This document shows positions 16,829 through 44,215 of a stretch of DNA of 64,000 nucleotides, in pieces. The notes under the pieces were generated by a model. The model searched no databases. It was not told the DNA's origin and saw only the letters and a list, made by a program, of their open reading frames with translations. Origin of the DNA: an uncultured Clostridia bacterium (GTDB lineage: Bacteria > Bacillota > Clostridia > Oscillospirales > Acutalibacteraceae); the NCBI GenBank assembly GCA_947630285.1, contig CANRHD010000001.1, forward strand, positions 1 to 64,000, given 5' to 3'. Position 1 is the stretch's first letter. Each line of letters begins with the position of its first letter. The translations under genes and the position numbers were made by a program.

Positions 16829-16929
16829 TAAAAATCTCCTTAAACAGTTAATAAACAGATTTTAACACGAATTATTTTAAACTTCAATCATTAAAGCGCA
16901 ATTATATACAAATAAACGGACTAAAAAAG

Positions 16930-16956
16930 AGCAGGCAGAAAATAATCCGCCTGCCC
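16930..16956. repeat. Left direct repeat (terminator-like hairpin) flanking structured element copy A
   Basis: agcaggcagaaaataatcCgcctgccc. Matches 17219-17245 with one mismatch. Contains the GCAGGC...GCCTGC hairpin. Minus strand continues into a TTTTTT tract. Confidence 0.75.
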
Positions 16957-17218
16957 CAGTCTGTCGATAAACTGTTTTACGATAACAAAATGCCAAAAGT
17001 TTTTGCCCGTCTTTTTTCAAAAAGACGGTGGGGTCGAGGGGCAACGCCCTCGGCGCAGTCCGCAGACTGCGAAACACACCTATACTCAAAAAAGCGCAGG
17101 AGGGGCGAAAAACAGTCCGGTGGACTGTTTTTCGGTGGGGAACCCTCGCCGGGGGTTCACCATAATCTTACTACTTTTATGCATATTGCCAAGTGAAACA
17201 TACTTTTTCTACACGCTG
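16957..17218. mobile_element. MITE-like structured non-coding element, copy A
   Basis: ~262 bp bounded by CAG...CTG with imperfect terminal inverted repeats (CAGnnTGTnGAnAAA). Several hairpins. Closely similar core at 43942-44182. Flanked by 27-bp direct repeats. Confidence 0.7.
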
Positions 17219-17245
17219 AGCAGGCAGAAAATAATCTGCCTGCCC
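17219..17245. repeat. Right direct repeat (terminator-like hairpin) flanking element copy A
   Basis: agcaggcagaaaataatcTgcctgccc, next to the putP stop codon region. Confidence 0.75.
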
Positions 17246-17258
17246 GTAGTTTTTTCTT

Positions 17259-43530: not shown

Positions 43531-43917
43531 ATGAAAAAATGGAGAGCGTTTTTAATATATTTTATCCTCGGTTCATCGCTGTATGGACTAATTGAAATAG
43601 CTTACAGGAACCGTACCCACTGGTCCATGCTTATAGTGGGGGGAATTGCCCTTTATGCGATATATGTAATATCCAACGATTTCCCTGAAAAAAGCATTTA
43701 CTTTAAATGTTTTATTTCATCTGCGGTCATTACCGTGCTTGAGCTGTTTACGGGAATTTTGGTTAATATTGTTTTTAAAATGGGCGTGTGGGATTATCAC
43801 AATATGCCCTTTAATGTTTTAGGACAGATTTGCCCGTTATTCAGCGCCTTGTGGTTTTTGATTTCAATACCTGCAAACGCCCTTGTAAGCTGTATTAAAA
43901 CCTATACAGAAAAGTAA
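43531..43917 (+). CDS. Small 4-TM membrane protein of the CmpB/'putative ABC transporter permease' type
   Basis: TVLELFTGILVNIVFKMGVWDYHNMPFNVLGQICPLFSALWFLIS. Confidence 0.7.
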   Translation: MKKWRAFLIYFILGSSLYGLIEIAYRNRTHWSMLIVGGIALYAIYVISNDFPEKSIYFKCFISSAVITVLELFTGILVNIVFKMGVWDYHNMPFNVLGQICPLFSALWFLISIPANALVSCIKTYTEK

Positions 43918-43939
43918 ATGAGCCGAAAAAACGGCACAT
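43916..43939. repeat. Left direct repeat (terminator-like hairpin) flanking structured element copy B
   Basis: aaatgagccgaaaaaacggcacat, compared with 44183-44205 aaatgagccgaaaaacggctcat. Confidence 0.75.
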
Positions 43940-43941
43940 CT

Positions 43942-44182
43942 CAGGTTGTCGGTAAACTACTAACTTTAAAAGTTTTCGGCCGCCTTTTTCAAAAGGCGGT
44001 GGGGTCGAGGGGCAACGCCCACGGCGCAGTCCGCAGACTGCGAAATACCTGTACTTTATAAAGCGCAGGAGGGGCGGCAAACAGTCCGGGGGACTGTTTG
44101 CCGGTGGGGAACCCTCGCCGGGGGTTCCCAATAATCTTACCATTTTGTGCAAACCCGATAACGCCCACTTTTATACATGCAA
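43942..44182. mobile_element. MITE-like structured non-coding element, copy B
   Basis: ~241 bp. Starts CAGGTTGTCGGTAAACT. Core very similar to copy A (GGTGGGGTCGAGGGGCAACGCCC..., AAGCGCAGGAGGGGCG..., GGTGGGGAACCCTCGCCGGGGGTTC). Flanked by imperfect 23-24-bp direct repeats. Confidence 0.7.
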
Positions 44183-44215
44183 AAATGAGCCGAAAAACGG
44201 CTCATTTATCTTTTT
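44183..44215. terminator. Hairpin terminator forming the right direct repeat of element copy B
   Basis: aaaaATGAGCCGaaaaaCGGCTCATttatctttttt. Overlaps the stop codon of the minus-strand ORF. Confidence 0.75.

Follow-up and report, generated by a model that had tools for sequence, protein, structure and literature searches.

A MITE family in the genome of an uncultured Clostridia bacterium inserts at hairpins and ends up flanked on both sides by the target hairpin. Its target is the hairpin, the duplication is exact, an orthologous empty site carries one hairpin, and full-length copies of IS1182-family insertion sequences exhibit the same signature. The system, which an earlier note on this DNA had left unnamed, is IS1182-related. 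Relative to the open-access literature, both the MITE family and the natural evidence for the duplicating mode are new.

The window, the 64,000-nucleotide stretch analyzed here, contains two copies of the element (Table 1). Copy A lies between putP and its GH27 neighbor gene. The earlier note had described it as a 262-bp non-coding CAG...CTG element with imperfect terminal inverted repeats, bracketed by 27-bp direct repeats that each form a complete hairpin. We find the terminal repeats as described and the direct repeats in place, with both hairpins folding much better than shuffled sequence (DNA z-scores of -4.6 and -6.8). The 28-nt stretches at 16929-16956 and 17218-17245 are identical at 27 of 28 positions, and the duplicated segment becomes 27 bp once the element is bounded as CAG...CTG. 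As RNA, copy A has a strong fold (-98.5 kcal/mol, z of -6.0), and Rfam returned no family matches in the window. The A6 tract outside the left hairpin is T6 on the minus strand and belongs to the copy that putP transcripts reach last, while the T6 tract outside the right hairpin is on the plus strand. The statement that only the distal copy keeps a T-tract is therefore correct for putP (minus-strand) transcripts but not in general, as each copy keeps one tract. Because a hairpin with its original outer tract is kept on each side, transcripts of either strand meet a complete terminator at the promoter-distal copy. It follows soundly from this geometry that duplication would preserve termination, and the duplicated terminator may in turn lower the cost of insertion. 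Copy B is likewise flanked by the same hairpin on either side despite its decayed right end.

Table 1. Positions of the two MITE copies and their flanking hairpins in the window.
Feature	Position	Strand	Remarks
MITE copy A	16957-17218	+	262 bp, non-coding, CAG...CTG
Left copy of duplicated hairpin, copy A	16930-16956	none	27 bp; preceded by A6 at 16923-16928
Right copy of duplicated hairpin, copy A	17219-17245	none	27 bp, one substitution relative to left copy; followed by T6 at 17250-17255
Left terminal repeat, copy A	16957-16971	+	CAGTCTGTCGATAAA; supported by consensus over copies
Right terminal repeat, copy A	17204-17218	-	reverse complement CAGCGTGTAGAAAAA; supported by consensus over copies
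MITE copy B	43942-44183	+	right end decayed; boundaries approximate
Left hairpin copy, copy B	43917-43939	none	aatgagccgaaaaaacggcacat; read directly from sequence
Right hairpin copy, copy B	44184-44206	none	aatgagccgaaaaacggctcatt; read directly from sequence

The closest relative of the host, G036, has a putP ortholog that is 96% identical and likewise has the GH27 neighbor. The gap between these genes in G036 holds a single hairpin (GAGCAGACGGATAAAAATCCGCCTGCAC) and no element, and it aligns end to end with the flanks from the host genome (G000) when these are joined at one hairpin copy. This colinear empty site demonstrates that the repeat around copy A is a target duplication, as the earlier note had supposed when it proposed that a terminator-like hairpin was duplicated on insertion. 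G030, a more distant member of the genus, also has one hairpin between putP and the GH27 gene.

We gathered further copies from G000, a draft assembly of 2.03 Mb, by sequence search together with the stretches around each match. A search with the copy A element returned 40 scored matches, of which 39 are near full length. The family is non-coding and ranges from 108 to 576 bp, with both shorter (~109 bp) and longer (303-576 bp) variants present in G000. At most G000 copies the direct repeats are complete hairpins; these match left and right at a given locus and are unrelated from one locus to the next. Among 54 two-ended candidate pairs, 36 exhibited a strong repeat, 2 a short repeat, and 16 no repeat that the aligner scored; some of these 16 are spurious pairings, and at L012 and L121 the repeat is obvious by eye though the aligner scored none. 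Direct repeats are thus present at 38 of the 54 pairs, nearly all of them whole hairpins, and the same is true of most of the same-genus copies that were examined. The repeat copies in G000 differ between left and right at 24 of 636 positions, which is consistent with old insertions. T-runs of at least four lie beside 29 of 38 G000 target hairpins on at least one side, as compared with 17% of random positions, so the targets fit intrinsic terminators. Genomes G035, G034 and G018 of the same genus exhibit the hairpin-duplication pattern seen in G000; the internal sequence of the G018 elements is quite unlike that of G000, yet the pattern is equal. Collectively the other copies and the empty site establish both a duplicated terminator-like hairpin and, as the earlier note had proposed, a hairpin-targeting element with an unusually long target duplication, with the addition that the length of the duplication is variable.

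The position of the hairpin relative to the element ends was measured with a one-sided junction test that needs no duplicate. A hairpin starts exactly at the junction (offset 0) at 88% of insertion sequence ends and 67% of MITE ends, compared with 2.4% of random positions, and the signal fades over a few bases from offset 0. These junction statistics and the ~40 genome copies rule out chance as the source of the arrangement at copy A. In 54 of 55 cases the center of the duplicated segment coincides with the hairpin axis to within half a base, a result obtained for 28% of random windows and for 6% after a 1-bp shift. Pairing is high within the duplicated segment and falls off outside it. The segments are 18-40 bp long and run through all helical phases, and the target hairpins have no evident sequence in common. 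Attack at both hairpin feet predicts such centering combined with variable length; a fixed linear stagger does not.

The MITE ends, CAGnnTGTcGA[t/a]AAA, match those of IS1182-family insertion sequences, the terminal repeats being common to both (CAGYCTGTCGATAAA and CAGYGTGTAGAAAAA in the MITE versus CAGNCTGTCGAAAAA in the insertion sequence). At one site in G018 we observed a hairpin, a left end (CAGCCTGTCGAAAAA) and a truncated IS1182-type transposase gene starting 58 bp inside that end. The G018 protein fragment, used as query against bacterial and archaeal species genomes, gave 80 loci. Its intact relatives are about 1.50-1.63 kb with ends CAGnnTGTC.AAAAA...CTG, and the partner transposases have DDE_Tnp_1 domains. 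The proteins at L139 and L140 score 421 and 402 bits against NF033551 (IS1182 family; cut-off 270), and the 15 long transposases from the 80-locus set are 58-100% identical pairwise with several acidic residues invariant. In its ends, hairpin targets and whole-hairpin repeats the IS1182 family, which includes IS1272 and ISEfa7, is like the MITE; the element described here differs in being a 108-576 bp non-coding MITE whose host has no detected transposase gene. No match to an IS1182 transposase gene was detected in G000, and the genus has truncated or partial copies only, making the MITEs orphans in the draft genome; the transposase may have been lost from G000 or may lie outside the draft assembly. 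The terminal repeats are the only sequence that MITE and insertion sequence have in common, and these repeats, together with the duplicated-hairpin signature that both exhibit, argue for a link between the two. An IS1202-type mobilizer, suggested by the long duplications and the TGT motif, was also considered and is disfavored. NF033594, our proxy for IS1202/ISNCY-type transposases, gave weak hits with nothing over the cut-off in 40 genus genomes, and the IS-like genes found had no matching ends. Furthermore, the element reaches to CAG...CTG, outside TGT...ACA, so its outer ends are not of the IS1202 type.

Full-length insertion sequences carry the same signature. Among 34 Clostridia copies for which both ends were accessible, 18 are flanked by matched whole-hairpin direct repeats of 20-36 bp that are identical in 16 cases (17 of 19 when a 163-bp MITE in L181 is included), and L185 also has a matched hairpin duplication as far as its contig end permits. 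Eleven copies have a different hairpin at each end (L142, L160, L163, L172, L174, L190, L192, L194, L195, L200 and L202), three were scored with one clear hairpin, and L165 has a short repeat only. The copies with unlike hairpins may stem from recombination between copies or from assembly joins; many loci come from draft or metagenome assemblies, which could account for some of them. In phage and plasmid records, which are mostly given as complete and encode transposases 39-54% identical, we observed whole-hairpin duplication at 13 copies spanning Bacilli, Clostridia, Fusobacteria and Proteobacteria. These are from Cetobacterium, Sutcliffiella, four Streptococcus phages (one copy annotated as transposase-IS1562), Staphylococcus arlettae, Acetoanaerobium, Salinivibrio, Providencia, Rhizobium, Macrococcoides and Enterococcus. 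Matched repeats were not detected at L247, L249 (ISEfa7) or L256, although both ends of these copies adjoin hairpins. Two distant members with transposases 26-29% identical gave an ambiguous picture.

We believe it likely that these insertions arise when an IS1182 transposase mobilizes the MITE and attacks at the 5' feet of a hairpin, with repair copying the hairpin to both sides. The non-autonomous MITE would be moved by a DDE transposase of the IS1182 family, which would recognize a hairpin-forming inverted repeat, mostly an intrinsic terminator, by structure and not by sequence. The hairpin would be extruded as a cruciform, both transposon 3' ends would be joined to the hairpin 5' feet on the two strands, and each hairpin would then be unfolded and copied by host repair, so that the element ends up flanked by direct copies of the entire hairpin. 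The observed product is precisely what attack at both 5' feet with subsequent hairpin copying yields. Several observations count against this mechanism: an IS1182 transposase was not detected in the host, MITE and insertion sequence have only terminal repeats in common, certain copies in AT-rich surroundings carry 4-11 bp repeats without a clear hairpin, the 11 full-length copies with unlike hairpins require recombination or assembly joins, and the family member IS1272 deletes its hairpin instead of duplicating it (PMC4923244, PMC5678879). We also favor, somewhat more cautiously, a general view in which IS1182 transposases are structure-guided integrases, recognizing not a sequence but the four-way junction at the foot of an extruded hairpin. 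The hairpin and not the enzyme would then set the size of the duplication, and landing in a terminator that is duplicated would be nearly neutral, allow a high MITE copy number and provide a fresh hairpin into which another element could insert, as in the one tandem pair observed, at L114.

A different account of the long duplications is an ordinary linear duplex target cut with a stagger of ~20-35 bp, in which palindromes are merely preferred as a symmetric site for a dimer. The direct-repeat product would look alike, and IS1202-family elements are known to produce duplications of 16-28 bp (PMC10132070), but the segment remains centered on the hairpin axis even though its length spans 18-40 bp and all helical phases, and the target hairpins share no evident sequence, which makes this account unlikely. 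We give slightly less weight still to a target consisting of a single-stranded DNA hairpin, for example at a replication fork, instead of a duplex cruciform. Single-stranded DNA can fold into terminator hairpins, and a hairpin foot may be all that the enzyme recognizes; however, a duplicated hairpin implies that both strands are joined, at both feet, which a single strand does not readily give. Finally, the hairpins could be part of the element or a tandem pair that preceded insertion, with no duplication at all. Beyond the presence of two hairpins nothing speaks for this, whereas each locus has an unrelated hairpin with left matching right, and the one-hairpin empty site in G036 rules out a pre-existing tandem pair, such that we regard an absence of duplication as extremely improbable.

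Hairpin targeting has precedent in the staphylococcal IS1182-family elements IS1272 and TnSha1, whose targets are stem-loops, frequently terminators, of no particular sequence (PMC4923244, PMC5678879). IS1272 removes its hairpin without duplication, whereas the MITE retains and duplicates it, and replacement of the IS1272 type is thus not what we observe. Hairpin duplication was drawn only as a hypothetical pathway b for IS1272, the observed outcome being hairpin loss (PMC5678879); palindromes as targets of some IS1182 members are mentioned there as well, in a quotation from an earlier review and with no data given. Unusually long target duplications are described for the IS1202 family and IS481EU (PMC10132070, PMC10045372). 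Their ends are TGT...ACA and their long-duplication members have no known hairpin target, in contrast to the hairpin-targeted CAG...CTG element described here. The present copies provide natural evidence from multiple phyla for whole stem-loop duplication, previously just sketched for IS1272. Integration of CRISPR spacers uses both edges of a sometimes palindromic repeat, duplicating the whole repeat; unlike the MITE, it involves another enzyme, one fixed repeat and no transposon ends. A rule that the duplication equals the hairpin would explain the long and variable target duplications of the IS1182 family. It would also offer a reason for accumulation, as elements land between transcription units with a terminator left on each side. 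For annotation, paired identical hairpins around a repeat mark an insertion and fix the element ends to the base.

A number of loci depart from the typical arrangement. AT-rich sites L033, L040, L078 and L014 have direct repeats of just 4-11 bp without a strong hairpin. Two copies at the ends of G000 contigs C8 and C25 (L034 and L041) are cut by other sequence (TGAACTGCACCCC...) where the contigs break; we rejected them as autonomous elements, and each looks like a MITE disrupted by a different, apparently mobile, sequence. Contig breaks in G018 and G035 ~100 bp inside element ends were considered as hidden long elements and look like short-repeat assembly breaks. In G000, L042, L116 and L119 are longer forms of the MITE (540-580 bp) that carry an additional non-coding stretch of ~250-300 bp. 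Loci L072-L091 in G018 comprise a distinct, nearly uniform MITE of 150-215 bp with ends and hairpin duplications as in G000, probably a more recent expansion. At L114 (G000 C27:1-4500, about 456-780) another copy ends in front of the left hairpin, and the two elements appear to be arranged in tandem with one hairpin in common.
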